DNA of 48,521 nt, from NCBI GenBank assembly GCA_016871855.1, contig VHBQ01000012.1:1-48521 (forward strand), given 5' to 3'. Position 1 is the first letter of the stretch. The number at the start of each line of letters is the position of its first letter. Below the pieces are notes generated by a model. The model made no database searches. It saw only the letters and a program-made list of their open reading frames with translations, and was not told the origin of the DNA. The position numbers were made by a program, and so were the translations under genes. This document shows positions 20,491-46,156 of the stretch, in pieces. Source of the stretch: Gemmatimonadota bacterium. GTDB lineage: Bacteria > Gemmatimonadota > Gemmatimonadetes > Gemmatimonadales > Gemmatimonadaceae.

Positions 20491-21408
20491 ATGGCCGAGA
20501 TGCCCCGAATCGCCGGCCGTGTGCTGCTGGCTGCGACCGCATTCCTCGTGCCGACGATCCTGATCTACCGGACCGTCGTCGACGTGTCGTCGCCCTATCC
20601 GGGGGCCGCCGCGGCCGAGCCGGCGCCGGCGCCCGCCGAGACGGTGTTCGTGGGCGTCATCTCGCGCTACCCCTCGAGTGTGATCTATCGCGGCTACCAG
20701 CCGGTGATGGACTACCTGTCACAGACCACCGGCCGGTACTTCGCGCTCCGCCTCAGTGGCACGTACGAGGAAACGGTCCAGCAACTCGTGCGCGGCCGCG
20801 TCGCCGCGGCCTTCTTGGGCGCCTACCTCTACGTGAAGGCGCACGACGAACACGGCGTGGTCAGTATCGTGCAGCCCGTCAATGACGACGGCAAACCGCG
20901 GTTTCGCTCGGTCCTCCTCGTGCGCGAAGGCTCTGACCTACACCGACCACGGGATCTGCGCGGCCGTCGCCTCGCGCTTCCGCCGGAACTGTCGTACTCA
21001 GCCAACTGGCTGCTGACGCGTGTGATGCCTGCCGTGGGAGTCGACAGCACCGCGCTGCGCTCCCTGCGTTTCCTCCCCAACCATCACGCGGCAGTGTACG
21101 AACTGCTCCGCGGCAATGCGGATGCCGCCGCCGTCAAGGACCGCGTGGCCCAGGAGTATCGCGGCCGCGGCGTTCGCGTGATCGCCACGTCGGATCCGAT
21201 CCCCGGCGCGCCCATTGTCGTCGCCGCGCGCCACGACACGGCGCTCGTGGGGGCGATCACTCGCGCGCTTCTCTCCCTCGACCGGCGCGCGCCGGGCTTC
21301 CGGGAGATCACCGCCAAGTGGGATCCTGAGTTCGCGAACGGATTCACGCGCGCCAGCGACGCGGACTACGACGTGCTGCGGCAGATGCTGGCGCCACGGC
21401 GGCGATGA
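20491..21408 (+). CDS. PhnD-like phosphate/phosphite/phosphonate-binding protein
   Basis: This 305-residue protein has one N-terminal hydrophobic helix (RVLLAATAFLVPTILIYRTVV) with no clear cleavage site, so it may stay anchored to the membrane. A PhnD-type binding domain follows (about 50-300): FVGVISRYPSSVIYRGYQPVMDYLSQ, a central VAAAFLGAYLYVKA, LRGRRLALPPELSYSANWL and GNADAAAVKD. These match the order in PhnD/PtxB-like proteins that bind phosphonate, phosphite or phosphate. No ABC permease or ATPase adjoins it. Instead it overlaps a sensor kinase by four bases (ATGA), so it more likely senses than transports. GGAGA lies at about 20480. The ligand is inferred from the family only. Confidence 0.85.
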   Translation: MAEMPRIAGRVLLAATAFLVPTILIYRTVVDVSSPYPGAAAAEPAPAPAETVFVGVISRYPSSVIYRGYQPVMDYLSQTTGRYFALRLSGTYEETVQQLVRGRVAAAFLGAYLYVKAHDEHGVVSIVQPVNDDGKPRFRSVLLVREGSDLHRPRDLRGRRLALPPELSYSANWLLTRVMPAVGVDSTALRSLRFLPNHHAAVYELLRGNADAAAVKDRVAQEYRGRGVRVIATSDPIPGAPIVVAARHDTALVGAITRALLSLDRRAPGFREITAKWDPEFANGFTRASDADYDVLRQMLAPRRR

Positions 21409-22880
21409 TGCCGGAACACCCGTCGGGGCGCGCATCGCTGCGCGTACAGGTCGTCACCACGGTTGGTGTCGTGGTTGTCGCCCTGTTTGGCGCGATTTCC
21501 CTGGCGGGGCTCTTGCAGGTGCGCAGCGGGATCATCCAGCAACAGCGACACGGCGCGATCGCTGTAGCCCGGACGTTTGCAATTGCCGCGGTTGACGCGC
21601 TGATCATGGACGATCAGGAGCAGTCATCGGCGGCCGACGTGCTCGACAACCACGTGCGCACGTTCATGGAGTCGACGGACGGCGCGCTGTCGGTGAGCAT
21701 CATCGGTGCGGATAGTCGGATCCTCGCGCACAGCGATCCGCGGCTCTACAACCGGCAAGTGACCGACTCGGCGACGCTGGCGGCCAGCCGAACGCCGGCG
21801 CCGGCCAGCGCGGTGCTCGAGGATGACGACGGTCGCTGGGTCATCGAGGCGGCCGTCCCGCTGCAAGTCGGAGGAAAGCGTTGGGGGGCGACGCTCATCC
21901 GATTCGACGCCGGTCCGATGCGTCAGCAGATCCGGCGGCTCTTCTTCCAGCTGCTGCTGATCACGACGATCATTACCACGGCAACGCTCGGCCTGCTGTA
22001 CTTGCTCGTCGGACGCATCACCGCCTCGCTTCAGTCGCTCGTCGCCGAGGTAGACCGCTTCGACCTCGACTCGGATCAGCGCGCGCCGCTCGAAGCGCCG
22101 AGCAACGAGATTGGCTACCTCATCCAGCACTTCGAGCAGCTGAAGGGGCGTCTGCGGCAGTCGCGGCGTCAACTGACGGCCGCGCAGCAGCAGGTGTTTC
22201 AGGCGGAGAAGCTGGCATCCGTGGGACGCCTGGCGTCGGGCGTGGCGCACGAGGTGAACAATCCGCTCAACGGCATTCGCTTCTGCCTGCATGGGATTCA
22301 GGCAGAACCGGCGAACGCCGAGCAGACTCAGCGATACCTGGGCCTGATCGACGAGGGCCTGCAGCAGATCGAGTCGGTGGTGCAGAAGCTGCTCGGCTTC
22401 GCCCGCAACCAGCCGGCGGACTTTCAACTGGTCAGCCTCAATGAGCAGTTGCGGGTGGTGCGCGACCTGCTGGAGTTTGAGTTCCGGCGCAAGGACATCA
22501 CCCTGCAAACCGCGCTGGACCCCGGATTGCCGAGCGTGCGCGCCGACGCCACCCTGCTCAAGGAGGTCTTCATGAACCTCTTGATGAACTCCATCGACGC
22601 CGTTGATGCTGGGGGCGGCATTCGTGTGCAGTCGGGCGTCGCGGAAGACGGCGGCGTGTTCGTCTCGGTGACGGACAATGGCATGGGGATCTCGGACGAA
22701 CATCGCTCGCAGATCTTCGAGCCATTCTTCACGACCAAGGAGACGGGCCGGGGCACCGGGCTTGGCCTGTCCGTCACCTTGGGGATCATTGAACTGCACG
22801 GCGGCACCATCCGCGTGCACAGCGAACCGAGGGTGCGCACGACGTTCACGGTCCTGCTGCCGGTGGGGGAAGCCACATGA
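21405..22880 (+). CDS. Membrane sensor histidine kinase
   Basis: This 491-residue kinase has a first transmembrane helix (VVTTVGVVVVALFGAISLAGLL) and a Cache-like extracytoplasmic domain at about 40-180. A second helix (FFQLLLITTIITTATLGLLYLLV), a HAMP-like region and a coiled coil follow. The HisKA box is VAHEVNNPLNGIRF (phospho-acceptor H282), as in NtrB-like kinases. The ATPase domain shows NLLMNSIDAVD (N box), VTDNGMGIS (G1), FEPFFTTK and GTGLGLSV (G2). It overlaps the binding-protein gene and the response-regulator gene by ATGA on both sides. It would phosphorylate the sigma-54 activator when the anchored binding protein or its own Cache domain detects a ligand. Confidence 0.95.
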   Translation: MMPEHPSGRASLRVQVVTTVGVVVVALFGAISLAGLLQVRSGIIQQQRHGAIAVARTFAIAAVDALIMDDQEQSSAADVLDNHVRTFMESTDGALSVSIIGADSRILAHSDPRLYNRQVTDSATLAASRTPAPASAVLEDDDGRWVIEAAVPLQVGGKRWGATLIRFDAGPMRQQIRRLFFQLLLITTIITTATLGLLYLLVGRITASLQSLVAEVDRFDLDSDQRAPLEAPSNEIGYLIQHFEQLKGRLRQSRRQLTAAQQQVFQAEKLASVGRLASGVAHEVNNPLNGIRFCLHGIQAEPANAEQTQRYLGLIDEGLQQIESVVQKLLGFARNQPADFQLVSLNEQLRVVRDLLEFEFRRKDITLQTALDPGLPSVRADATLLKEVFMNLLMNSIDAVDAGGGIRVQSGVAEDGGVFVSVTDNGMGISDEHRSQIFEPFFTTKETGRGTGLGLSVTLGIIELHGGTIRVHSEPRVRTTFTVLLPVGEAT

Positions 22881-24238
22881 GAGTGCTGCTGGTGGAGGAC
22901 GACCGGATCACCCGGGTGTCGCTGACGGATGCCTTGGTGCGCGAGGGCTTCGCCGCGGAGGCGGTCGAGGACGGCACGCAGGGGATGGAGCGGGCGCGCA
23001 CCGGCCAATACGACGTGATCGTCACGGACCTGCGGCTTCCCGGCCCGGGAGGGTTGGAGGTCTTGCAGGCCGCGCGGCAGGCGAATCCGCGTTGCGAGGT
23101 CGTGGTCATCACCGCGTTCGCCACGGTCGACACCGCCGTGCACGCGCTCAAGTTGGGCGCCTACGACTACATCACGAAGCCTCTGGCCCCCGAGAAGTTC
23201 CTGGGGATGATGCGCAATCTCCGGCAGTACCGGTCAGTGATAGACGAGAACGCGGATCTGCGCCGCCGCCTGGAGCTGTTCCAGAACCGCACGGTCGTCG
23301 CCGAGGCGCCCGCCATGGGCAAGCTGCTGGAGACCGTGCGGCAGGTCGCGCAGCACAACAGCACGGTGCTCATTCGCGGGGAGAGCGGGACGGGGAAGGA
23401 GATGATCGCGCGCACCGTGCACTTCCTCAGCCCACGGCGCGACGAACCGTTCGTGGCCATCAACTGCGCCGCCATCCCCGAATCGCTGCTGGAGAGCGAA
23501 CTCTTCGGGCACGAGAAGGGGGCGTTCTCAGGCGCGGTGCAGCGCCGCAAGGGATACTTCGAGCGGGCCAACGGCGGCACGATCTTCATCGACGACGTGG
23601 ACGACCTGCCACTCGGTCCGCAGGTGAAGCTGCTGCGCGTGCTGCAGGAGCGGACGGTGGCTCGGCTTGGAGGGACGGCGGAGATTCCGGTCGACGTGCG
23701 GGTCATCTGCGCCACCAAGGTGGATCTCAAGGCGCACGTGGAGCGTCGGCAGTTCCGGGAGGACCTGTTCTACCGGCTGAACATCGTGCCGCTGCGCATC
23801 CCGCCGCTTCGGGAGCGTCCCGAGGACCTCCCACCCCTGACGCGGCATTTCTTTGAGAAGCACGGCGGGCGTGAGTGGCTGGCCCGCCTGCAACCGACGT
23901 TTTTCGAGATGCTGGGTGCCTACGGTTGGCCAGGCAACGTACGCGAGCTCGAGAACTTCGTGCAGCGCGTCATCGCGACCGGCGAAACGGAACTCGCCCC
24001 GGCGCACGATGCGACGGTGCCGGACGTGACCGCACCGGAGATGCGCGACGAGGAGGCGGGCGCGTCGGAGTATCCGCCGTTTGACGAGTACATGCGCCAG
24101 CGCGAGGCCGAGATCATCACTTGGGCGCTGGAGAAGTCGGAGCGCAACGTGACGCAGGCGGCGCGACTGCTGGGGATGCCCCGCGGGACACTCCGGAGCC
24201 GATTGGAGAAGCTCAACCTCGACGTGCCCACCGACTGA
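22877..24238 (+). CDS. Sigma-54-dependent response regulator, NtrC family
   Basis: This 453-residue activator has three domains. The receiver (1-115) has the phospho-acceptor D51 in IVTDLRLPG and K104 in ITKPLAP. The AAA+ domain (about 140-375) has Walker A GESGTGKE at 168-175, the sigma-54 contact loop as GAFSGA at 215-220 and Walker B as IFIDDVDD at about 236-243. The Fis-type helix-turn-helix is near the C terminus (NVTQAARLLGMPRGTLRSRL). Two features deviate from the family: Ser replaces Thr in GAFTGA, and Asp replaces the usual Glu after the Walker B aspartate. It overlaps the kinase gene by ATGA and lies just upstream of its probable binding sites and target promoter. Confidence 0.95.
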   Translation: MRVLLVEDDRITRVSLTDALVREGFAAEAVEDGTQGMERARTGQYDVIVTDLRLPGPGGLEVLQAARQANPRCEVVVITAFATVDTAVHALKLGAYDYITKPLAPEKFLGMMRNLRQYRSVIDENADLRRRLELFQNRTVVAEAPAMGKLLETVRQVAQHNSTVLIRGESGTGKEMIARTVHFLSPRRDEPFVAINCAAIPESLLESELFGHEKGAFSGAVQRRKGYFERANGGTIFIDDVDDLPLGPQVKLLRVLQERTVARLGGTAEIPVDVRVICATKVDLKAHVERRQFREDLFYRLNIVPLRIPPLRERPEDLPPLTRHFFEKHGGREWLARLQPTFFEMLGAYGWPGNVRELENFVQRVIATGETELAPAHDATVPDVTAPEMRDEEAGASEYPPFDEYMRQREAEIITWALEKSERNVTQAARLLGMPRGTLRSRLEKLNLDVPTD

Positions 24239-24239
24239 A

Positions 24240-24278
24240 GGCGAAGTTTCGCCGGGGGTATCGGCGAGATTTCGCCGG
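24240..24278. promoter_or_regulatory. Two near-identical 16-bp palindromes, candidate activator-binding sites
   Basis: GGCGAAGTTTCGCCGG at 24240-24255 and GGCGAGATTTCGCCGG at 24263-24278 are identical at 14 of 16 positions. Each is (nearly) self-complementary: GGCGAA/TTCGCC around GT in the first copy and GGCGA/TCGCC in the second. They are 23 bases apart, about two DNA turns. They begin one base after the response-regulator stop and lie about 115-140 bases upstream of the -24 element, the usual place for NtrC-type enhancer sites. Assignment to this regulator is inference. Confidence 0.7.
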
Positions 24279-24386
24279 TTGGCCTCCGGCCGCCGGCGTG
24301 CGAGCCGGGCCGTGAGCATCCGCTCCTGACGGGTAACCCGTTGCCAGGAAATCACTTAGTGTCTGGCGCACGGCGGTGCCAGCCCA

Positions 24387-24402
24387 CGGCACGGCGTTTG
24401 CA
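24387..24402 (+). promoter_or_regulatory. Sigma-54 promoter (-24/-12)
   Basis: The sequence CGGCACGGCGTTTGCA matches the consensus TGGCACGN4TTGCA at every conserved base except the first. The invariant GG (24388-24389) and GC (24400-24401) are separated by exactly 10 bases. Transcription would start near 24413, about 130 bases before the porin start. The stretch 24239-24540 holds no convincing gene; apart from this promoter and the two palindromes I see only a ribosome-binding site (AAGGAAAG near 24528). Confidence 0.8.
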
Positions 24403-24540
24403 CTTGTTGTGCGTGTTCCGCCCCCCATACGCAACGCGATCGCCGTCGCATCGAAGGACCGGCCAGCCATCAGCGGTCCCCGGCGCACCGCAGAACCCGC
24501 GGCGCTCGCACGCCCTTTCACGCAGAAGGAAAGACCAACC

Positions 24541-26130
24541 ATGATGAGACGGATCCAGTTCGCCATCGCGGCAGCGGCGCTGCTGCTGGTGACCCCGCTC
24601 GCCGCCAGGGCCCAAGCGCGGGTCGTTACGGGGACGGTGACCTCCAACCTCGACGGCAAGCCCGTCGCCGGTGCCAGCGTTCGACTGAAGGGCGCAGTGC
24701 TGTCGACAGTCACCGACCTCACCGGACGCTACCGCCTGGACATCCCGGCAGGATCCGCGGACGTCCTGCTGTTCATGCATCCGGAGCACGACGCCGTGGA
24801 GAAGGAACTCGCCGGCGCGTCGCAGTTCGACGTGGTGCTGCTGTCGCGGATGCGCATCAACCAGTACGGCGTCAAGACCGAGCGCAAGCCGGTCAGCGGC
24901 GAGGAGCGCAGCGGCTTCCTCGTCTTCGAATCGCCCAACCAGGACTACAAGTTCTGGTTCGACGTGCGCGTGCAGACCGACGCGGCCGTGTTCTTCGGGA
25001 AGACGCCAGCGCCCATCGGCAACGGCATCGCCCTGCGTCGCCTGCGCTTCGCGACCAAGAGCCAGTTCACGCCGCGCTGGTACGGCGAACTCGATCTCAA
25101 CTTCGCCGACGCGGCCGTGGAGATTGAGGATGCGTACCTGATGTACACAAACAAGGACTTCTACGTAAAGATCGGCAATGCCAAGGAAGTGTTCTCGATG
25201 GAGACGAACACGACCAGCCGCTACCTGTCGTTCATCGAGCGGCCGCTCGGCACCAAGGCGCTCGTGCCGTCCCGCCGCCTCGGCGTCTCCGCAGCCAAGA
25301 GCCTGCCGATGGGCCTGCGCGCGTTCGGCGGTGTCTACTTCCAGGACATTGGGGAGTCGGATGCGGTGGTGGCCCGTCAGGACAACAACGAGGCGTTCGG
25401 GCGCGACGAAGGCTACTCGCTGACCGGCAAGCTGATCTTCCGCCCCTCGTTCAACCATGAGGACGGCGGATTGCATCTCGCCGCGGCGAGCTCCTACCGG
25501 ACGCCAAAGACCGACGATGTGCTGGGCACGATGCGCTTCAGCGCGCGCGGTGTGACCTACATCAATCGCAAGAAGTACGTGGACACCGACCGCATGAAGA
25601 ACGTGGACGACGCGGTGCTCAACGGACTCGAAGGTTCGGCGTTCTACAAGAACTGGCGCGTCTCGGCCGAATACAACAACGTGACGGTGAATCGCCTCGA
25701 CACGCTGAAGTCGGCGAAGTTCGATGGCGCCTATGTCATGGCGAGCGTGCTGCTGTTCGGTGGCCGCCAGCGCTACAACTCCGAGGAAGGCGAGTTCACG
25801 CAGCCGAAGCGCGGCAAGACGTGGGGTGATGTCGAACTCGCCGCGCGTTTCGAGTACCTCGACCTCAACGACTTCGACGCTGGCATCAAGGGCGGCGCGG
25901 GTCAGGCGACGGTGATCGGCGCGAACTGGTGGGTGAACAACAACGTGAAGTTCATGCTGAACTACGGTATTCTCGACTACGACCGCTACGCGACCGGCCG
26001 CGGCAAGTTCGCGATCGGCTACAAGGCGGACGGCACGCCGACCAACAACCCGCAGCTCATCACTGCCGCGAAGGGGAAGGGTGGCAACGACTTCCGCGTC
26101 CTCGCGCTGCGCTGCGAAGTGAACTTCTGA
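24541..26130 (+). CDS. Porin O/P-like outer-membrane channel with N-terminal carboxypeptidase-regulatory domain
   Basis: This 529-residue protein has a signal peptide (FAIAAAALLLVTPLAARA). A transthyretin-like carboxypeptidase-regulatory domain follows at about 24-95 (VVTGTVTSNLDGKPVAGASVRLKG, DLTGRYRLDIPAG). The rest resembles phosphate-selective porin O/P: alternating amphipathic strands, RFATKSQFTPRWYGELDLNFADAAVEIEDAYL, FYVKIGNAKEVFSMETNTTSRYLSFIERPL and a final aromatic-ended strand (ALRCEVNF). OprO/OprP channels pass phosphate or pyrophosphate; ligand specificity here is not proven. It is the first gene after the sigma-54 promoter. An alternative ATG is at 24544. Confidence 0.85.
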   Translation: MMRRIQFAIAAAALLLVTPLAARAQARVVTGTVTSNLDGKPVAGASVRLKGAVLSTVTDLTGRYRLDIPAGSADVLLFMHPEHDAVEKELAGASQFDVVLLSRMRINQYGVKTERKPVSGEERSGFLVFESPNQDYKFWFDVRVQTDAAVFFGKTPAPIGNGIALRRLRFATKSQFTPRWYGELDLNFADAAVEIEDAYLMYTNKDFYVKIGNAKEVFSMETNTTSRYLSFIERPLGTKALVPSRRLGVSAAKSLPMGLRAFGGVYFQDIGESDAVVARQDNNEAFGRDEGYSLTGKLIFRPSFNHEDGGLHLAAASSYRTPKTDDVLGTMRFSARGVTYINRKKYVDTDRMKNVDDAVLNGLEGSAFYKNWRVSAEYNNVTVNRLDTLKSAKFDGAYVMASVLLFGGRQRYNSEEGEFTQPKRGKTWGDVELAARFEYLDLNDFDAGIKGGAGQATVIGANWWVNNNVKFMLNYGILDYDRYATGRGKFAIGYKADGTPTNNPQLITAAKGKGGNDFRVLALRCEVNF

Positions 26131-26150: not shown

Positions 26151-26795
26151 ATGTATACCATGACACAGAAGATCGGCACGCTCGCTCTCGCCGCAGCACT
26201 GGTGCTGCCGGCCGCGGGGTGCATCGAAGATCCGGTGGCGCCCCCGCCGCCGCCGACCAAGAGCGAGCTCATCCACTACTGGCACTTCAACAACCTGCCC
26301 GCCGGGACGCTGACCAGCGTCGCCGTCGACGTGACGAAGCGCGCCCCGGCCGAGATTACCTATCCGGGGACGGGACTCGGCTACATGGACAACGTGGATC
26401 CGGGCACCGACATCAATGCGCGCAACAACCTGGCGGCCGGCCTCGGCCTGCGGCCGCGCAACCCGGCCAACACGCGCGCGCTCATCATCGCGGCGCCCAC
26501 CACGGGGTACAAGAGCATCGTGGTGACCTGGGCCGCGCAGCGTTCGAGCAGCGGCGCGCAGCAGGAGGAGTTCTCCTATTCGGTGGACGGGGGCACGACC
26601 TGGGTGCCGGTCGGCGGTCCGATTGCGATCGCCGAGGCGTGGGAGCAGAAGTCGGTGAACCTCTCGGCGATCACGGCCGTGGAGAACAAGGCGAACATGC
26701 GGTTCCGCATCCTGTTCACCGGCACGGGGTCCGACGGCGCGTCAGGGAACAACCGTCTCGACAACATCACCATCGAAGGCATTCCGCTCAGCTAA
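26151..26795 (+). CDS. Lipoprotein of unknown function downstream of porin
   Basis: This 214-residue lipoprotein has the lipobox LVLPAAGC and a short poly-Pro linker. The mature part begins SELIHYWHFNNLPAG and contains GYKSIVVTWAAQRSSSGAQQ and FSYSVDGGTTWVPVG, ending with NRLDNITIEGIPLS. This looks like a beta-sandwich of the lectin/discoidin-like sort seen in secreted nucleases and surface proteins. It starts 20 bases after the porin stop and is likely in the same transcript. Start codons at 26151 or 26160 are possible. Its role is not recognised; an accessory or binding subunit of the porin is a guess. Confidence 0.8.
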   Translation: MYTMTQKIGTLALAAALVLPAAGCIEDPVAPPPPPTKSELIHYWHFNNLPAGTLTSVAVDVTKRAPAEITYPGTGLGYMDNVDPGTDINARNNLAAGLGLRPRNPANTRALIIAAPTTGYKSIVVTWAAQRSSSGAQQEEFSYSVDGGTTWVPVGGPIAIAEAWEQKSVNLSAITAVENKANMRFRILFTGTGSDGASGNNRLDNITIEGIPLS

Positions 26796-26903: not shown

Positions 26904-27380
26904 ATGGCACAAGAGATTGAAAGGAAGTTCCTGGTCAGCGGCTCCTTCCGTGAGCACGCCCAGAAGTCGACGCGCATTGTACAAGGCTACCTGTCGTCGG
27001 TGCCGGAGCGGACCGTGCGCGTCCGAATCAAGGGCGACAAGGGATTCATCACGGTAAAGGGCATCGGCAACGCGTCAGGAGCCAGCCGCTTCGAGTGGGA
27101 GCGCGAGATTCCCGCCGCCGAGGCCGACCAGATGCTCGCGATCTGCGAACCCGGTGTGATTGACAAGGTGCGGCACCTCGTGTCCGTCGGGGCGCACACG
27201 TATGAAGTGGATGAGTTCCACGGCGACAATGAGGGATTGGTGCTCGCCGAGATCGAGTTGTCGGCGGAGGGCGAGGCGTTCCAGAAGCCATCGTGGCTCG
27301 GCGCCGAGGTCACCGGAGACACGCGGTACTACAACTCCATGCTGATGAAACAGCCCTACACGAAGTGGGCGAAGGGGTGA
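26904..27380 (+). CDS. CYTH-domain phosphohydrolase
   Basis: This 158-residue protein starts with EIERKFLV, the ExExK metal signature of CYTH/triphosphate tunnel enzymes. It continues with the paired basic strands TVRVRIKGDKGFITVKG and RFEWEREI, and the later acidic strand YEVDEFHGDNEGLVLAEIEL. These residues line the tunnel that binds triphosphate. Small bacterial members usually hydrolyse inorganic triphosphate. The ATG at 26904 has AAGGAAA at 26892. It is cytoplasmic and lies 2 bases before the anion permease gene, suggesting coupling of transport with phosphate-polymer metabolism. Confidence 0.93.
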   Translation: MAQEIERKFLVSGSFREHAQKSTRIVQGYLSSVPERTVRVRIKGDKGFITVKGIGNASGASRFEWEREIPAAEADQMLAICEPGVIDKVRHLVSVGAHTYEVDEFHGDNEGLVLAEIELSAEGEAFQKPSWLGAEVTGDTRYYNSMLMKQPYTKWAKG

Positions 27381-27382
27381 GA

Positions 27383-29005
27383 ATGGCTTCCATCGCCCCG
27401 ACCGCCACGCCGGTGCACGCCGATCCGCTGGACATGCACCAGTACCGGATCGAACTGCTTCCGGTCCGCAAGAAGGGCGCGTTCGAACGGCGCCTCGCGC
27501 AGGCCGGGATCCCGCTGGCCCTCCTGCTGTTCGTGCTCTTCGCGTTCGTGGTCGAGCTTCCGTTCCTGCAGGGCATCGACCCGGCGACGCTCTCGTCCGA
27601 GGCCGCGAAGAAGGAGTTTGCCGCCATCGGCAGCGAGCTGTTCAGCCAGCGCAACGGCTACATGCTGGCCATCTTCGCCGCGTCCATGGTGCTGTGGGCG
27701 ACCACGGCGCTGCCGAACTACCTCACGAGCCTGATCCTGCTGATCTCGCTCGTCCTCACCGGGGTATTGCCGGAGCAGAAGGCCTACGCGCAGCTCGGCC
27801 ACCCGGTGATGTGGCTGAACATCATGTCGTTCGTGCTGGCCAGCATGCTGGTCGCCACCGGGCTCGCCAAGCGGATGGCACTCTGGCTGATCCTCAAGTT
27901 CGGGCACACGGCGCGCACCGTGTTCTTCGTGTTCATCCTGTTGAACCTGGTGCTTTCCGCGTTCGTGTCGGCGACGACCGCCAAAGCGGCCATCTTGCTG
28001 CCGCTCTTTATGGTTATCGCCGCGATCTATGGCGCGCGTCCCGGAGAGGGGCGTACCAATTTCGGCCGGAGCATCGTCCTGCAGAACCTGCTGCACAACA
28101 ATCTGGGTGCGAGCGCGTTCCTCACCGGATCGGGAGCGAACTTGCTGGCCGCGGCGCTGATCGCGGGCGCCATCGGCTCGTCGGTGTACTTCACGGACTG
28201 GATGATGGCGCAGTTCCCCATCGCCATCGGCCTGATGGTCGTGGGCTATTGGCTGGCGATGCATGTCTTCTTCCCGCTGGCGCCGGACGAGCGCGTGCCG
28301 CAGGTGGAAGGGGGCATGGCGCGCCTGAAGGACGCGTACGATGAGTTGGGACCGATCTCGAGCAAGGAAGTGCGCGCGATCATCCTGTTCGTGGTCATTC
28401 TCGGGCTCTGGGCGACCGACAAGGTGCACGGTGTCAGTCCGACGGCCGTGGCGTTCCTCAGCGCGATCACCGCGTTGCTGCCGCGCATCGGCATCGTCGA
28501 CTGGAACGACGTGGATGTGCCGTGGCACTTGATGCTGTTCTCGGCGGGTGCGTACGCGCTCGGTGCGGGACTGGATACGACCGACTTGCCGGCCATCACC
28601 GTGAACGCGGCGTTCGATCACCTGGGGATCGGGTCGCACACGCCGTTCTGGGCGCTGTACCTGCTGCTCACCGCGTTCATGACGTTCAGCGCGCTGGTGT
28701 TCGAGTCCAAGACGATGCGCGCCATGATCTTCGTCCCCATCGCCATTGGTGTCGCCAATCGCTTTGGGTTCGCGGTGGTGAGCCTCGCGCTGCCCGTGGC
28801 GTTCCTGATCGAGCATGTGTACGTGCTGCCGTTCAACAGCAAGCCGGCGGCGCTGCTCTACGAAACTGACAAGTACAGCTTGGGCGATGCGTTCAAGTAC
28901 GGGATCACGATGATGGTCATCGGGTGGGCGGTGATCGTCCTCGCCGGCGAGACCTGGTTCCGCGTGCTCGGCATCACCCCGCATGGAGTGTTCGGATGGT
29001 TCTGA
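27383..29005 (+). CDS. SLC13/DASS-family anion permease
   Basis: This 540-residue membrane protein has about 11-12 helices and the divalent-anion:sodium symporter pattern. The first substrate-hairpin region is visible as LSAFVSATTAKAAILLPLFMV and a second conserved region as DVPWHLMLFSAGAYALGAGLDTT. FLTGSGANLLAAAL and ALVFESKTMRAMIFVPIAIGVA form later conserved hairpins. Known relatives carry sulfate, phosphate or dicarboxylates. The neighbours (porin O/P, CYTH, DUF47-like) favour phosphate, by inference. The N-terminal 40 residues are a hydrophilic extension. It starts 2 bases after the CYTH stop. Confidence 0.9.
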   Translation: MASIAPTATPVHADPLDMHQYRIELLPVRKKGAFERRLAQAGIPLALLLFVLFAFVVELPFLQGIDPATLSSEAAKKEFAAIGSELFSQRNGYMLAIFAASMVLWATTALPNYLTSLILLISLVLTGVLPEQKAYAQLGHPVMWLNIMSFVLASMLVATGLAKRMALWLILKFGHTARTVFFVFILLNLVLSAFVSATTAKAAILLPLFMVIAAIYGARPGEGRTNFGRSIVLQNLLHNNLGASAFLTGSGANLLAAALIAGAIGSSVYFTDWMMAQFPIAIGLMVVGYWLAMHVFFPLAPDERVPQVEGGMARLKDAYDELGPISSKEVRAIILFVVILGLWATDKVHGVSPTAVAFLSAITALLPRIGIVDWNDVDVPWHLMLFSAGAYALGAGLDTTDLPAITVNAAFDHLGIGSHTPFWALYLLLTAFMTFSALVFESKTMRAMIFVPIAIGVANRFGFAVVSLALPVAFLIEHVYVLPFNSKPAALLYETDKYSLGDAFKYGITMMVIGWAVIVLAGETWFRVLGITPHGVFGWF

Positions 29006-29043: not shown

Positions 29044-29781
29044 ATGCTGTTTCGGAACGATGCGTTGACCGCGCAGTGTGAGGAGATGATCGCCGTCGTG
29101 GTGCACGGCGCGGTCTTGTTCAGGTCGGGGATAGGTCTGGCGCTGCAGGACCGGCCTGATGAATTCCAGAGTCGGCTGTTCGAGCTCAAGGCGCTCGAGC
29201 AGCAGGCGGGCGAGCTGCAGCGCGCGCTGCAGGCGTCGGTCGAACGCGGCGGACCGTTCGTCGGCCGGACGCGGCGCGTGCAGGTGGCGCGCTTGGCGCA
29301 GGCTGGGGACGTGGTGCGCCGCATGACGGCCACCCTGCGGCGGTATGCCGTCGAACAGCCGGAGCCGGTACTCGAGGGCAACACCCTGCTGATCGATCTC
29401 GCGGAGCACGCCAAGCGGACCGTGGATGCGATGGCGGCCGCGCTGCGCGCCCAGATGACCGAGTCCCCGACAGCGAGCGACCTGGCTGACGCGGTGCACA
29501 CCCGCGCGTTGGACACGCGCGAGGCGAGCGAAAAGTACCGGCGCCTCATCTTCCGTCTCGACTTGCGGCTGAGCCACAAGAGCCAGCTGAGCGAGTTCTC
29601 CGAGGCCATCGAGTCCGTGGCCGATGCGGCGGCGGCAGTCGCGGCGCACGCCATCGCCCCCCAGCGAGGCGCGGCGGTGAGTTTTGGCCGCTGGGCGTTC
29701 GGACGAAGTGCCTCCCGGTGGGTGGTGCTGTCGACGGTCATCGCCATCCTCGGCACCGTACTCACCCTGTCGTCTACGTAG
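29044..29781 (+). CDS. DUF47/PhoU-like helical protein with C-terminal membrane anchor
   Basis: This is an all-helical protein of 245 residues. The helix pattern follows the DUF47 (PhoU-divergent) family: a first helix with FELKALEQQAGELQRALQ, a second with VARLAQAGDVVRRMTATLRRY, a third with LLIDLAEHAKRTVDAMAAAL and a last pair ending QLSEFSEAIESVADAAAAVAAHAI. DUF47 proteins are usually encoded next to Pit phosphate permeases and regulate them; here the partner is an SLC13 permease. Unlike typical members it ends in a membrane helix (WVVLSTVIAILGTVLTL). The ATG at 29044 is chosen over 28996 and 29005 because of GGAGG at 29034-29038. Family similarity is judged by eye. Confidence 0.7.
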   Translation: MLFRNDALTAQCEEMIAVVVHGAVLFRSGIGLALQDRPDEFQSRLFELKALEQQAGELQRALQASVERGGPFVGRTRRVQVARLAQAGDVVRRMTATLRRYAVEQPEPVLEGNTLLIDLAEHAKRTVDAMAAALRAQMTESPTASDLADAVHTRALDTREASEKYRRLIFRLDLRLSHKSQLSEFSEAIESVADAAAAVAAHAIAPQRGAAVSFGRWAFGRSASRWVVLSTVIAILGTVLTLSST

Positions 29782-29879: not shown

Positions 29880-30518
29880 ATGAGCGATGTATTTGGCAAG
29901 AACCAGGCGACGTCCGCGGCTGACGCGGCCAAGATCGTTCCGCGCGCCGAGTTTCGCGTCTTCGGCAAGGACATCATCGAGGGCGTGAAGGCCAAGATGT
30001 GGAATGGCAAGACGGTGCTGTTCCAAGCGCGCAAGATGCCGGCCGAGACGTACTTCCTGTCCGCCAAGACCAACGAAGCGAACGTCAAGGTCCGCGACGG
30101 CCTCCTCGACATCAAGACGAAAGTCGGCGAGACGCCGGAGGGCTACGAGATCTTCCAGCCGCGCGGCAAGTTCCAGTTCCCCGTCAAGCGCGAGGATCTC
30201 GCCACCATCCTGTCGCACCTCAAGGTCGAGATGGCGCTCGACGCCGAGACGTACACCATTGACGCGTTCATCGCGATGGCGCGGCAGCATCCCGAGCTCG
30301 TGCCGGTGACCGTCGAGAAGATGCGCTACGGCTTCACGGTGGACGGGATCATCTGCGAGTACGCGCAGGTCTGGTTCAACGGCGCGATGGTCGAGTCGGC
30401 GTGCGCGGAGAGCGAGAACTACGCCGGAATGAAGGCCGTGGTGGAGGGGCTGGGCATCGCCGCTCTGCCCAACACCAACTACCTGAAGGCCGCCAAGCAG
30501 GTCGTGGGCCTGCTCTAG
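29880..30518 (+). CDS. CYTH-like protein, second in the locus
   Basis: This 212-residue soluble protein has no signal peptide. The order of basic and acidic strands suggests the CYTH/triphosphate-tunnel superfamily: RAEFRVFG, ETYFLSAKTNEANVKVRDGLLDIKTKV, GYEIFQPRGKFQFPV, then VEKMRYGFTV, ICEYAQVWFNG and MVESACAESE. It differs from the CYTH protein at 26904 in sequence and lacks a clean ExExK start, so it is either divergent or non-catalytic. I recall similar uncharacterised proteins ending with an NTxY-K motif, as here (NTNYLKAAKQ). AGGAG precedes the ATG at 29880. The call is tentative. Confidence 0.6.
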   Translation: MSDVFGKNQATSAADAAKIVPRAEFRVFGKDIIEGVKAKMWNGKTVLFQARKMPAETYFLSAKTNEANVKVRDGLLDIKTKVGETPEGYEIFQPRGKFQFPVKREDLATILSHLKVEMALDAETYTIDAFIAMARQHPELVPVTVEKMRYGFTVDGIICEYAQVWFNGAMVESACAESENYAGMKAVVEGLGIAALPNTNYLKAAKQVVGLL

Positions 30519-30545: not shown

Positions 30546-32762
30546 GTGCGCGCGCTGAGGCTCCTGGCCGCACGCGCGCCCTCTCCCGGTGACTTCTGGG
30601 GAGGGCTCGCGGCGATGCTGGTGGCGTTGCCTGCCTCGATCGCGTTCGGCGTCACCGTGTATGCCGCGCTCGGGCCGGCGCACGCGGCGTATGGCGCCGT
30701 GGCCGGGATCATCGGGGCGACCGTGCTCGGCCTGGTCGCGTCGTGGCTTGGCGGCACCGACCGGCTGATCAGCGCCCCGTGCGCGCCGGCGGCGGCCGTG
30801 CTCTCCGCCTTCGCCATCGAACTCACCCAGCACGGCGTGGCACCGGGCCACGTGGTGGCGCTGCTGCTCCTCGTTGGCATGCTGGGTGGACTGGCGCAGC
30901 TGGCGTTGGGCGTGCTGGGCGTGGGCGGGTTGATCAAGTACATCCCGTATCCCGTCGTGAGCGGGTACCTGACGGCCGTGGGGCTGATCATCATCAGCAG
31001 TCAGGTGCCGAAGTTCCTCGGCGTTGCCGGCGGTTCGGGCTGGCTGGAGGCGCTGCGCTCGCCGGACCGCTGGGACTGGCGCGCCATGCTCATCGCGCTG
31101 ATGACCACCGCGGTGGCGACCACCGCGCCGCGCGTGACGCAGCGGGTGCCGGGCATCATCCTCGGCATCCTGGCCGGCATCCTCACCTACGGCGCGCTGG
31201 TGTTCGCTGACCCTTCACTGCGCGCCGTGACGAACAACCCGCTGGTGGTTGGCCCGCTGCTCGTCAGCGGCGAGGGGTTCCTCGGCGCGGTGCTTGGGAG
31301 TTGGAGCGCGTACGGACAGATCAGCTTGGCCGACGGACTCGCCGCGCTCGGCACGGCGCTGACGCTGGGCGTGCTGCTGTCCATCGACACGCTCAAGACC
31401 TGTGTGGTGCTCGACAAGCTGACGCGGAGCCACCACGACTCCAACCGCGAGCTGATGGCCCAGGGCGTGGCCAATGTCGCGGCGAATGCGCTGGGCGGCA
31501 TCTCCGGTGCGGGACAGATGGGGGCGACGCTGGTGGGACTGAACAGCGGCGCGACGACCCGGGCCGCGGGCGTGATCGAAGGCACGTTGGCACTGGCCGC
31601 CGCCCTCCTGTTGAGCGAGTTCATCGCCTGGATTCCGGTGGCCACGCTGGCCGGCATTCTGGTGGTGATCGGCATCCGGATGATCGATCGCGAGCCGCTG
31701 CAGTTCCTCGACTCGCGCGAGACGATGCTCGACTTCGCGGTCGTGCTCGCCGTGGTGGTGGTGGCGCTGACGGTCAGCCTGATTGCCGCGTCAGCGGTGG
31801 GCGTGGGGCTCGCGATGATCCTCTTCGTCCGCGAGCAGATCGGCGCGCCGGTGGTGCGCCACAAGGCCGATCTCGAGCAGACGTCCTCGAGCTGGCACCG
31901 TCCGGAGCGCGAAGTGGAGATGCTTGAGCAGCACGGGCAGGAGGCCGTGGTGTTCGAGCTGCAGGGGAGCCTCTTCTTCGGCAACACCTACCAGCTCTAC
32001 GCCGACTTGGAGCACGAGATCGGCACCCGCAGTTATGTCATTATCGACCTGCGCCGCGTGCGCTCCATCGACATCACGGCGGCGCAGCTCTTCCGGCAGA
32101 TTCGCGACACGATCCGCGAACGCGGGGCCAAGCTGGTCTTCAGCGGCGTGAAGGACAATCACCGCAGCGGACGCAACCTGCGCGAGTTCCTCGGCCAGAG
32201 CGGCGTCTGGCATCCGCAAAGCAAGACCGTGCGCATCTTCGCCGACCTCGACGCGGCCATCGGCTGGGTCGAGGACCGGCTCGTCGGGGGCTTGGAGCTG
32301 CCGCCGGAGGAGCAGGAGCCGATGCCACTGGCTGAAATGGAGCTGTTCGCGAAGCACAAGGACGAGACGATCGTCGAACTGGAACGCCGGATGGAGATCC
32401 GCCGGTTTTTGGCGGGCGACACCATCTATGCGCAGGGCACGCCGGGCGATGAGCTGTACTGGGTGCGACGCGGGACGGTCCGCCTTGTGGCGCCGATCGA
32501 GCGCAGCAAGACCAAGCCGGTGGCCAGTTTTGGACGCGGCGATTTCTTTGGCGGGCTCGCCTTCATGGATGCCAAGCCCAGGCCGCACGACGCCGTCGCG
32601 CTCACCGACACCGAGGTGTACGTCCTCACGCGCGATCAGTTCGAGCAGATGGCGCTGGTGCATCGCAAGCTGGCCTTCAATCTCGCCAACTCGATGGCAC
32701 TCACCTTCGCGATGCGACTGCGGCGCGCCGAGCGAAAGATCGCGATGCTGCAGGAGTTCTAA
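30546..32762 (+). CDS. SulP-type anion transporter with STAS and cyclic-nucleotide-binding domains
   Basis: This 738-residue protein has three parts. Residues about 12-430 are a SulP/SLC26 membrane domain (FWGGLAAMLVALPASIAFGVTV, GGTDRLISAPCAPAAAVLSAF, YIPYPVVSGYLTAVGLIII). Residues about 465-585 are a STAS domain (VVFELQGSLFFGNTYQLYADLE, YVIIDLRRVRSIDITAAQLF). The C terminus, about 610-735, is a cNMP-binding domain (FLAGDTIYAQGTPGDELYWVRRGTVRL, GRGDFFGGLAFMD). The usual RS of the nucleotide pocket is changed to RPHD, so the ligand is uncertain. SulP proteins carry sulfate, bicarbonate or other anions. The start is GTG 30546 with GAGG at 30534. Its stop overlaps the next gene as TAATG. Confidence 0.92.
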   Translation: MRALRLLAARAPSPGDFWGGLAAMLVALPASIAFGVTVYAALGPAHAAYGAVAGIIGATVLGLVASWLGGTDRLISAPCAPAAAVLSAFAIELTQHGVAPGHVVALLLLVGMLGGLAQLALGVLGVGGLIKYIPYPVVSGYLTAVGLIIISSQVPKFLGVAGGSGWLEALRSPDRWDWRAMLIALMTTAVATTAPRVTQRVPGIILGILAGILTYGALVFADPSLRAVTNNPLVVGPLLVSGEGFLGAVLGSWSAYGQISLADGLAALGTALTLGVLLSIDTLKTCVVLDKLTRSHHDSNRELMAQGVANVAANALGGISGAGQMGATLVGLNSGATTRAAGVIEGTLALAAALLLSEFIAWIPVATLAGILVVIGIRMIDREPLQFLDSRETMLDFAVVLAVVVVALTVSLIAASAVGVGLAMILFVREQIGAPVVRHKADLEQTSSSWHRPEREVEMLEQHGQEAVVFELQGSLFFGNTYQLYADLEHEIGTRSYVIIDLRRVRSIDITAAQLFRQIRDTIRERGAKLVFSGVKDNHRSGRNLREFLGQSGVWHPQSKTVRIFADLDAAIGWVEDRLVGGLELPPEEQEPMPLAEMELFAKHKDETIVELERRMEIRRFLAGDTIYAQGTPGDELYWVRRGTVRLVAPIERSKTKPVASFGRGDFFGGLAFMDAKPRPHDAVALTDTEVYVLTRDQFEQMALVHRKLAFNLANSMALTFAMRLRRAERKIAMLQEF

Positions 32763-42802: not shown

Positions 42803-44218
42803 TCAGGAAACTACGCGCAGGATCTCCTCCCGCGAGGTGATGCCGGCTGCGACCAGGCGCTCACCCTCCTCGCGGAGGGTTCGCATGCCCTCGGTGGCGG
42901 CGATGCGACGCAACTCGCTGGTGTCGGCCCCCTGACGCACGGCCTGCCGCAGGGCGTCGCTCATCACGAGCAGCTCGTGGATGCCCACACGTCCTCGATA
43001 GCCCGTGCGCCGGCAGGCGTCGCATCCGGCGCCCTGGCATTCGGGGCACCTGACACGCACCAGCCGCTGGGCGAGCACCGCCTCGACCGTGCTCGCCACC
43101 AGGTACGCCTCGACGCCTAGTTCGCGAAGTCGCGTGAGCGCGCCCGCCGCGTCGTTCGTGTGGAGCGTGGAGAGCACAAGGTGCCCGGTAAGCGCCGCCT
43201 GCGTGGCGATGGCCGCGGTCTCACCGTCGCGAATCTCGCCCACCAGCATGATGTCGGGATCCTGACGGAGCATGGCCCGCAGCGCGGTGGCGAACGTGAC
43301 GCCGCCCTTCTCGTGCACCGGGATCTGTGGCACGCCCGGCAGTTCGTACTCCACGGGGTCCTCGACGGCGAGGATCTTCTCCCGCCCCGTGCGCACGGCC
43401 TCCACGGCCGCGTAGAGCGTCGTCGTCTTGCCGCTTCCCGTTGGGCCGGTGGCGAGCACGACGCCGTGCGTGCGGCCGATCGCCGCGCGGAAGCGGGCCA
43501 GCGTATCATCGGCCATGCCGAGGGCGTCGAGCGCGATGCGGCCGCGGGCGGCGTCGAGCAGGCGCAGCACCACGCTCTCACCGTGCAGGGCGGGGATGGT
43601 GGAGACGCGCACATCCACCCCGCGATCCTGCAGGCGCAGGCGAATGCGGCCATCCTGCGGCGCGCGGCGTTCAGCGATGTCGAGTTCAGCCATGATCTTG
43701 AGCCGGCTGACCACAGCCGCCGCGAGCTGCGACGGCGGCGACGGAGCGTCCTGCAGCACGCCGTCCACGCGGTAGCGCACGCGCAGCGTCCCCGCATACG
43801 TCTCGAGATGCACATCTGAGGCGCGCGCCTGCAGCGCCTCGAGGATGAGCAGGTTGACCAGCCGCACCACGGGCGCTTCGTTGGCCTGCGCGACCAAGTC
43901 GTCGAGCGCGCGCACCGGCACGGCCCCCGTGGGCGCGTTCGTCCCAAGCGCGTCGATCATCCCCTGCGCGGTCGACTCGGCGCCGTACACGCGCTGGATG
44001 GCCTGCCGAAGAGCGGATTCCTCGCCACGCTCCATCACGACCCGCGCCTTGCACAGGATCGCGAGGTCATCGAGCGCCTGCGGGTCCGGGGCCTCGAGCC
44101 ACGAGCCCACGCGCAACACGCCGTCGCGCACCTCCAGCGGGAGGATCCCGTGGCGCTCGAGGAACGCGGCGGTGAGCGCCGTCGAGACGGGGGTCAGCGC
44201 GGTGAGGTCCACGGTCAC
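42803..44218 (-). CDS. gspE: Type II secretion ATPase GspE
   Basis: This 471-residue hexameric ATPase drives pseudopilus assembly at the inner membrane. It shows a short N-terminal domain, the conserved SDVHLE segment, Walker A GPTGSGKTTT at 258-267, the Asp box AVEDPVEYEL, Walker B DIMLVGEIRDGE and the His box GHLVLSTLHTND. The four-cysteine zinc site is C391, C394, C399 and C402. The start is GTG at 44218, overlapping the gspD stop (GTGA). It is the last gene of the operon segment seen here. PilB is the alternative, but the neighbours favour type II secretion. Confidence 0.93.
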   Translation of the reverse strand: MTVDLTALTPVSTALTAAFLERHGILPLEVRDGVLRVGSWLEAPDPQALDDLAILCKARVVMERGEESALRQAIQRVYGAESTAQGMIDALGTNAPTGAVPVRALDDLVAQANEAPVVRLVNLLILEALQARASDVHLETYAGTLRVRYRVDGVLQDAPSPPSQLAAAVVSRLKIMAELDIAERRAPQDGRIRLRLQDRGVDVRVSTIPALHGESVVLRLLDAARGRIALDALGMADDTLARFRAAIGRTHGVVLATGPTGSGKTTTLYAAVEAVRTGREKILAVEDPVEYELPGVPQIPVHEKGGVTFATALRAMLRQDPDIMLVGEIRDGETAAIATQAALTGHLVLSTLHTNDAAGALTRLRELGVEAYLVASTVEAVLAQRLVRVRCPECQGAGCDACRRTGYRGRVGIHELLVMSDALRQAVRQGADTSELRRIAATEGMRTLREEGERLVAAGITSREEILRVVS

Positions 44219-45690
44219 GGCTTGCGCGGCACCAGCGGCGCATTGCCGGGGACGGAATCGGTCGGGACCTTCTTCTCCACGGCGCCGCGGATGCGCTCGA
44301 GATCCTCATCGCTCGCGATAATATGCGGCGTGAGGAAGACGAAGAGTTCGCTGTTCACGGTGGCCGTGCGGGTGCTGCCGAAGGCGCCGCCAATCCACGG
44401 CAAGGCGCTCAACCCGGGAATGCCGGTGCGCGTCTTCTCCTGCGTGCGGTCGACGAGCCCGCCGAGCACCGCGGTCTGCCCGTCCTTCACGAACAAGTGG
44501 GTCGTCGCCTCGCGGGTGCTGATCACCGGCGCGCCGAACTGGGTCTCGTTGGTCGCCGAGCTCACTTCCTGCGAGACCTGCAGGGAGACGTAGCCGTCGG
44601 GGTTGATGGTCGGCAGGATGGCGAGCGTCGTGCCGACATCGCGGTACTGCACCACCTGATCGCGCACGCCGTTGTCGGTGGGCAGCGACCGGAAGAGCTG
44701 CACGAACGGCCGCTGGCTGCCGACGAGCATACGCGCCTCGAGATTGTTCTGCGCCAGCAGCAGCGGGCGCGAGAGTACGCGCACGTCACCGCGCGTGGCG
44801 AGCGCCGAGAGCGCCACATCCGTGCTGATAGCGCCGCCGCGCGCGAGCCGCAGCAGGAACGCGGCTGTGGAGGGCTCTTCCGCGCCGAGCACGCCGGTGG
44901 TGCGCGTGGTGGCGTCGGGCACTTTGGCGCCGGCGGCGCTCACCGAGACGTCGAGGTCGCGCGACTGCCGCACTTCGGCGATCAGCACTTCAATCATGAC
45001 CTGCAGGGGGCGCAGGTCGAGCGCCGTGATGGCCTGCTGAACGATCGTCCAGTCGGCGACGCGGGCGCGCACGAGCAGCGAGTTGCTAGTCTCGTCGGGG
45101 ACCACCTGCACGGGGCCGGACAACTCGGCCTTGAGGCCGTCGTCGCTGACTGGTCGCGCGGCGGTGTCGCCGGCGAGCACGGCGAGCCGCTGCTCCTTGA
45201 GCCGCTCGCTGAGCGTCGCGGTGCTTAGTCCCGGCGCGCTCGCTGGACGCGCGCCCCCGAAGAGCGACTGCAGCGTCGCGGCGAGCGTGGCCGCGCGCAC
45301 GTGCTTCACTCGGTACACGTGCAGGCGCACATCGCCGGCCTCCGGGGCGGGAGCGGGCGCGTCAGCGGGAAGCACGCGCAGCATCCGTCCCTCGCTCTCG
45401 ACGCGCAGCCCGTTGCCGGCGGCAAGGCTGCGAATGAGCGCCGGCACCTCGGCGACCGGAATGGCGTCGCGCAGGCGCAGCGTCACGCGTTTCTCGGGCA
45501 AGTCGCCAAAGACGATGTTGACCTTGCCGGCCTCGGCGAGCGCGGAAAGCACGACACGCAGGTCGGCGTCCTGAAGGTCAACGACCACGCCCGCCTCAGT
45601 GGCGCGAACGCTTTGCTGCGCGCGCGCGACGCACGGGGCCAGCGCCATGAGCGCGAGCAGAATTGCGGTGCGATGCAGGAACGGTTTCAC
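44215..45690 (-). CDS. gspD: Type II secretion secretin GspD (short form)
   Basis: This 491-residue outer-membrane secretin has a signal peptide (AILLALMALAPCVARAQ). One N-terminal STN/N0-like domain is seen (VVVDLQDADLRVVLSALAEAGKVNIV) and one NolW-type N domain (LHVYRVKHVRAATLAATLQSLF and VVPDETSNSLLVRARVADW). The secretin core follows (VMIEVLIAEVR, DVRVLSRPLLLAQNNLEARM, TLAILPTINPDGYVSLQV, LGGLVDRTQEKTRTGIPGLSALPWIGGAFGS). It is shorter than the usual 600-700 residues because N domains are missing. The GTG at 45690 starts 1 base after the gspC stop. Confidence 0.93.
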   Translation of the reverse strand: MKPFLHRTAILLALMALAPCVARAQQSVRATEAGVVVDLQDADLRVVLSALAEAGKVNIVFGDLPEKRVTLRLRDAIPVAEVPALIRSLAAGNGLRVESEGRMLRVLPADAPAPAPEAGDVRLHVYRVKHVRAATLAATLQSLFGGARPASAPGLSTATLSERLKEQRLAVLAGDTAARPVSDDGLKAELSGPVQVVPDETSNSLLVRARVADWTIVQQAITALDLRPLQVMIEVLIAEVRQSRDLDVSVSAAGAKVPDATTRTTGVLGAEEPSTAAFLLRLARGGAISTDVALSALATRGDVRVLSRPLLLAQNNLEARMLVGSQRPFVQLFRSLPTDNGVRDQVVQYRDVGTTLAILPTINPDGYVSLQVSQEVSSATNETQFGAPVISTREATTHLFVKDGQTAVLGGLVDRTQEKTRTGIPGLSALPWIGGAFGSTRTATVNSELFVFLTPHIIASDEDLERIRGAVEKKVPTDSVPGNAPLVPRKP

Positions 45691-45691
45691 G

Positions 45692-46156
45692 TCAGTTCCC
45701 CGGGGGAGATAGGCGAAGCTCGTGCCGCACACCGGCGGCGTCAATGAACACGGCGCGCGCCGGGGCGACGTCCACCAGACGCCACCCACCCAGCGTGTCG
45801 CCGGCGTGCAGGATGCGCGGCGCGGCGGCGCCGAGGCGGCAGATGGCGGCGGGGCGCTCGCCGCCGAGCACCGTGCCGATGAGTGTGATGGCGGGAGGGG
45901 GCTCTGCCGGCGCGACGCCCGCGTCCTCGACCATACCGCGCATCAGGCTGAACGGTTCGAGATGCGCGAAGCGCGCCGACCGTGCGCGCGGCTCGGATGC
46001 GGAGTCGGGCAGGGAGGGGAGCGTGAGCGCCGAAGCGGCGGCGATGTGCCCCGGTCGAACGGCCGCTGCGACCGACGCGAACGCGCCGATCACCGCCGCC
46101 GCGGCCAGGGCGGCGGCGACGCGTACGGCGGTCTCGCGCCAGGGTGACCAGATCAT
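45692..46156 (-). CDS. gspC: GspC/GspN-like inner-membrane component
   Basis: This 154-residue protein has one N-terminal transmembrane helix (AVRVAAALAAAAVIGAFASVAAAV). The periplasmic part (PPAITLIGTVLGGERPAAICRLG, LHAGDTLGGWRLVDVAPARAVFID) matches the HR domain of GspC and related PulC-like proteins, which contact the secretin. It lacks the C-terminal PDZ domain of longer GspC. It overlaps gspM by ATGA. Confidence 0.8.
   Translation of the reverse strand: MIWSPWRETAVRVAAALAAAAVIGAFASVAAAVRPGHIAAASALTLPSLPDSASEPRARSARFAHLEPFSLMRGMVEDAGVAPAEPPPAITLIGTVLGGERPAAICRLGAAAPRILHAGDTLGGWRLVDVAPARAVFIDAAGVRHELRLSPPGN

Follow-up and report, generated by a model that had tools for sequence, protein, structure and literature searches.

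The two palindromes that directly follow the gene for a sigma-54 response regulator (R) in a Gemmatimonadaceae genome are very probably tandem UAS of that regulator, and the -24/-12 element beyond them is very probably the sigma-54 promoter of a porin-CYTH-DASS-SulP operon. The DNA analysed here, called the window, is a 48,521-nucleotide stretch of contig VHBQ01000012.1 (assembly GCA_016871855.1; genome 2.99 Mb, 86% complete). Judged from its sequence, the locus is a local NtrC-type enhancer and promoter of a three-component regulon, with a design like that of AioXSR, yet it is not AioXSR.

The X, S and R genes are consecutive, with R third, and S overlaps both X and R by 4 bp (Table 1). The solved structures nearest to X are PtxB (phosphite; 1e-15), ArrX (4e-15) and AioX (1e-8). 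R has the NtrC-type domain set, with REC, AAA+ Sigma54_activat and Fis-type HTH domains all present by Pfam, and HTH comparison placed its recognition helix, MPRGTLRSRL, at 24176-24205. The R loop reads GAFSGA in the window and in G004, a genome of the same genus, versus GAFTGA in homologs from a second phylum. Sigma-54 is encoded in the same genome as the window (PF04552, E 7.6e-65). Elsewhere in the window, minus-strand genes at 42803-45789 seem to encode a type II secretion/pilus ATPase and a secretin.

Table 1. Features of the X-S-R locus and its predicted target operon, in window coordinates
Feature	Coordinates	Strand	Basis
X, periplasmic phosphonate-binding-type protein, presumed sensor	20491..21408	+	PF12974, Pfam E 1.6e-50
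S, histidine kinase (HAMP, HisKA, HATPase_c)	21405..22880	+	Pfam
R, NtrC-type sigma-54 response regulator (Response_reg, Sigma54_activat, HTH_8)	22877..24238	+	Pfam PF00072, PF00158, PF02954
UAS 1, GGCGAAGTTTCGCC, proposed R dimer site	24240..24253	.	Rank 2 in window by matrix (20.1); tandem-pair pattern
UAS 2, GGCGAGATTTCGCC, proposed R dimer site	24263..24276	.	Rank 1 by matrix (22.3); 13/14 kept in ortholog G004
TAACCCGTTG, YAANNNNTTR block between UAS and promoter, IHF-core-like, possible bend site	24334..24343	.	Positional conservation
Predicted -24/-12 promoter CGGCACGGCGTTTGCA, predicted start ~24413	24387..24402	+	Best in window
Target gene 1, carboxypeptidase-regulatory-like domain + Porin_O_P outer-membrane porin	24541..26130	+	PF07396 E 5e-31; start and ribosome site kept in G004
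Predicted lipoprotein, target operon	26151..26795	+	No Pfam family; syntenic in G004
CYTH domain protein, target operon	26904..27380	+	PF01928 E 2e-13; second-phylum homolog divergent from X-S-R
DASS/SLC13-type anion symporter, target operon	27383..29005	+	PF00939 E 1e-56; homolog in G455 locus
DUF47/PhoU-like protein (weak similarity), target operon	29044..29781	+	tblastn to second-phylum PhoU_div genes; no Pfam match above cut-off
Conserved protein accompanying CYTH gene in cassettes, target operon	29880..30518	+	Cassette comparison
SulP anion permease with STAS and cNMP-binding domains, probable operon end	30546..32762	+	Pfam; syntenic in G004

One base separates the R stop codon, TGA (24236-24238), from the first repeat, which starts at 24240, as an earlier note on this DNA had said. 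The note had described two 16-bp palindromes. The 16-mers GGCGAAGTTTCGCCGG (24240) and GGCGAGATTTCGCCGG (24263) are indeed 14/16 identical and 23 bp apart, but the symmetric core of each palindrome is 14 bp, with six of seven pairs matched, and the trailing GG of the 16-mer is mirrored only partly, and at site 2 alone (24262-24277). The genome-wide search that the note had proposed, for GGCGAN2TTTCGCCGG, gave exactly two matches in 2.99 Mb, both at the locus, and the single exact match to GGCGANATYTCGCY in the same genome is UAS 2. A weight matrix trained without the window ranked its two sites first and second, with the next non-site at 10.2; the training sites, all from relatives, were picked with the motif as a guide, so that the genome-wide motif count is the fairer test. 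A tandem pair of palindromes as alike as these was found once in the window versus twice in 20 Markov-simulated windows (about 0.1 expected), so the pair by itself is moderately unlikely and no more than suggestive, and becomes decisive through the relatives. G004 and a further genome, G455, each have a single instance of the tandem pattern GGCGN6CGCC-N7-11-GGCGN6CGCC, in both cases at X-S-R; of its four occurrences in the window's own genome, the three besides the locus sit in long open frames.

The entire locus is kept in G004, and its R is 82% identical to that of the window. Site 2 of G004, GGCGAGATCTCGCC, is identical to UAS 2 at 13 of 14 positions, and a promoter-like element (10/16 identical) begins at the identical 124-bp offset from it. 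In a gap-free alignment from site 2, the intervening 110 bp are identical at 41 of 110 positions, and both genomes share the block AACCCGTTG, unchanged in sequence and position. Conservation of the palindromes in an orthologous locus that keeps the regulator, which the note had named as support, was thus seen for site 2 but not for site 1, which has diverged to GGCGGGCGTTCGCC and lies 22 bp from site 2. Because an X ortholog was found in G004 alone among 288 genomes of the order and 395 of the phylum, footprinting within the phylum amounts to one pair. A search of 201 order genomes with R gave, apart from G004, paralogs at about 40-48%, and among the R loci inspected X or the porin adjoins R in G004 alone. 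A plasmid search for X gave no match.

The near-consensus -24/-12 element reported earlier was confirmed. In CGGCACGGCGTTTGCA, GG (24388-24389) and GC (24400-24401) have ten bases between them, TGGCACGN4TTGCW is matched with one mismatch (C for T), and the score of 17.5 of a possible 18.2, in a simple weight scheme devised for this analysis, is the highest -24/-12 score in the window, the next being 16.4. The consensus match alone was not accepted as proof, since at one mismatch or fewer it occurs 13 times in the genome, less often than the reversed-pattern control, and is not enriched in the genus either. Further, the G004 promoter reads TGGCACAGCAATTGAG, with the -24 part kept and a -12 part of TTGAG versus TTGCA in the window, so that either the -12 GC is lost in G004 or the promoter differs there; this is a real weakness. 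Both observations would suit a reading in which the palindromes are R sites but the -24/-12 match arose by chance and the porin operon is transcribed from another promoter. We consider that reading unlikely, given that the 124-bp offset is identical in G004, that the second-phylum promoters lie at fixed distances, that no sigma-70-like promoter was found and that the sigma-54 domain of R requires a promoter of the -24/-12 kind. The distance from the centre of UAS 2 to the -12 C is 131.5 bp in the window and in G004 alike, consistent with CGGCACGGCGTTTGCA being the sigma-54 promoter of the operon. Elsewhere in the genus, TGGTACGCCAGTTGCT (G000:C1:100228-100243 and equivalents) was found in most of the listed genomes and TGGCAAGGCAATTGC(A/T) in several; both seem to be conserved sigma-54 promoters that serve other genes.

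The IHF core consensus is WATCAANNNNTTR, and the YAANNNNTTR block between the palindromes and the predicted promoter resembles it. The G004 counterpart, CAACCCGTTG, lies at the same 53-bp offset as in the window. The block is also found upstream of all seven divergent promoters of the second phylum, at 41 bp in six and at 40 bp in one, and it has no fixed place in the second-phylum promoters behind R. Genes of the HU/IHF family turned up in five of the six genomes tested, G004 included, and none was found in the window's own 86%-complete genome. Just before the porin start, a 25-nt segment, CGCACGCCCTTTCACGCAGAAGGAA (24507-24531), is identical in G004, the rest of the leader having diverged; it includes the ribosome site and is longer than such a site needs.

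A scan of genome contigs gave L067, a locus of the second phylum, as the sole relative of X (38%) besides that of G004. In L067, X-S-R and a group of two CYTH-type genes and DASS diverge from a shared 210-bp gap, which contains GGCGGAATCCCGCC, GGCGAAAATTCGCC and GGCGGAATTTCGCC, plus GGGAACGTCCGTTGCA directed at the CYTH/DASS operon. Further X-S-R loci, with R proteins 46-49% identical to that of the window, were obtained by searching 80 genomes of this phylum. The motif GGCGANATNTCGCC lies near -24/-12 promoters at seven second-phylum X-S-R loci, before CYTH/PiT/DASS operons. In six loci (L115-L120) it is found between X and a CYTH gene, beyond which PhoU_div, PHO4 and Porin_O_P follow in the loci examined, and in L116, L117, L118 and L120 it is also found behind R. 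The genes next behind R in the two annotated loci (L116 and L117) encode a Na/Pi cotransporter with a PhoU domain and/or TctCB. The motif and promoter behind R in L116 (12261-17381) and L117 (13116-14639) precede TctCB/TctA, in L116 after the Na/Pi cotransporter with the PhoU domain. In seven of seven divergent promoters, 93.5-95.5 bp separate the UAS centre from the -12 C; behind R this distance ranges from 131.5 bp (window and G004) to 145.5 bp. Exact GGCGANATYTCGCY occurs at 13 places in nine genomes, 12 of them in X-S-R intergenic DNA, and the reversed control at none; the thirteenth match (G509:C155) sits in a long open frame. The helix PR(G/S)TLRS(R/K)L is common to the motif-bearing loci checked. 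The X-S-R of L121 has the helix IPATTLKSKL and no motif near its R, and no motif was found near R in the L119 region after R or in the L114 locus.

Porin/CYTH/DASS cassettes without X-S-R had neither such a palindrome nor a comparably good -24/-12 element upstream of the porin, the negative controls being the porin orthologs of G052, G147 and G423, all without X-S-R. The palindromes are conserved where the regulator is kept and absent where it is lacking, as would be expected of its UAS. The NtrC-type enhancer and promoter architecture that the earlier note had put forward, with a target and a motif for this regulator, thus gains support from G004, from the seven second-phylum loci and from the absence of the motif without the regulator and at L121, where the recognition helix differs. 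Several observations weigh against it: the TTGAG and the diverged site 1 of G004, the lack of a motif near R at L114 and after R at L119, the GAFSGA loop, and the negative search for an HU/IHF gene in the window's genome. The sequences, their conservation, their spacing and their linkage to the regulator were established in this analysis. A porin-lipoprotein-CYTH-DASS-DUF47 cassette without X-S-R is also present in other genomes of the class (L061, L062 and L063).

It is very unlikely that the palindromes are operators of some other regulator that travels with the locus by chance. Binding by R is a prediction here, and the genome has many related activators (37 first-look candidates), but the cassettes that lack X-S-R also lack the motif, the motif tracks X-S-R over two phyla though the targets vary (PiT, DASS, Na/Pi, TctCBA), and no other regulator gene was seen in common among the loci. 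A role in RNA, as a terminator or 3' stabilizing hairpin of the X-S-R transcript, is scarcely credible and was rejected: although the repeats lie directly behind the R stop codon and fold together as a single long hairpin (-39.3 kcal/mol, z -2.8), such a hairpin is expected of any tandem palindrome, there was no T tract, no terminator call and no Rfam family above threshold, and in the second phylum the motif, often in single copy, lies between divergent genes and upstream of both, where a 3' hairpin would make no sense.

The tandem UAS and sigma-54 promoter proposed here may be compared with known systems. AioXSR of Agrobacterium and Rhizobium NT-26, which controls arsenite oxidation, is an operon of a PhnD-type X, a kinase S and a sigma-54 activator R, with an RpoN site in the target promoter, and the AioR operator is a 16-bp palindrome, GTTN10AAC, footprinted as GTTCGGATTTCCGAAC (PMC5335332, PMC7533571). 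The window X-S-R likewise has a PhnD-type X, a sigma-54 R and a probable palindromic operator, but this operator would be GGCGANATNTCGCC. Cys106 of AioX is arsenic-specific (PMC5908839); by alignment, the window X has Gly in its place, in an FLGAY segment aligned to the ArrX Cys. The neighbours of the window X-S-R are porin, CYTH, DASS and SulP genes, with no adjacent arsenite oxidase (aioBA). Because of the Gly and the lack of a nearby arsenite oxidase, the system was not classed as AioXSR. The general NtrC-type model comprises UAS, IHF and looping (PMC7175178). The window has the same arrangement, with a pair of palindromic, probable UAS that precede GG-N10-GC by about 100-150 bp and a possible IHF-like bend site between, but it differs in its own palindrome sequence and target operon, and its IHF-like site is putative. 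Finally, PtxB is the solved structure nearest to X, but PtxB and HtxB are ABC-transporter receptors, whereas X is encoded in a kinase-activator operon.

In the mechanism that we propose, periplasmic X, a PtxB/PhnD-type protein, would sense an extracellular oxyanion or similar ligand and drive kinase S, which would phosphorylate R. R would then assemble on the two palindromes, two helical turns apart, and contact sigma-54 polymerase about 130 bp downstream via looping, in which a protein that bends the DNA at the YAANNNNTTR block would probably assist, and the promoter would be opened by ATP hydrolysis. We infer the binding by R, the activation and the looping protein. The regulon is probably transport-related and oxyanion-linked. 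Given the gene content in both phyla (PiT, Na/Pi, phosphate-type porin, DUF47, CYTH, DASS and SulP), our best guess for the ligand of X is a phosphate-type oxyanion; a carboxylate is possible, given the TctCBA genes.

More tentatively, and with somewhat more doubt than confidence, we suggest that these loci represent a hitherto undescribed regulon, three-component and sigma-54-dependent, that serves the uptake of phosphate-type oxyanions (Porin_O_P, PiT or DASS, Na/Pi, DUF47, CYTH). It would have an operator of its own and a fixed geometry of enhancer, bend site and promoter, be common to Gemmatimonadota and one or more further phyla, and act alongside PhoBR or replace it. No description of a regulon of this kind was found in the literature searched. 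In a check for PhoB, the best OmpR-type matches fell below the TIGR02154 cut-off in every genome. In sum, a sigma-54 activator from a lineage that has received little study gains a concrete predicted operator, promoter and target operon, backed by independent relatives. The X-S-R three-component design would thereby extend from arsenic to a porin and to transporters of the anion/phosphate type. The motif, with its fixed spacing, is now open to direct tests.
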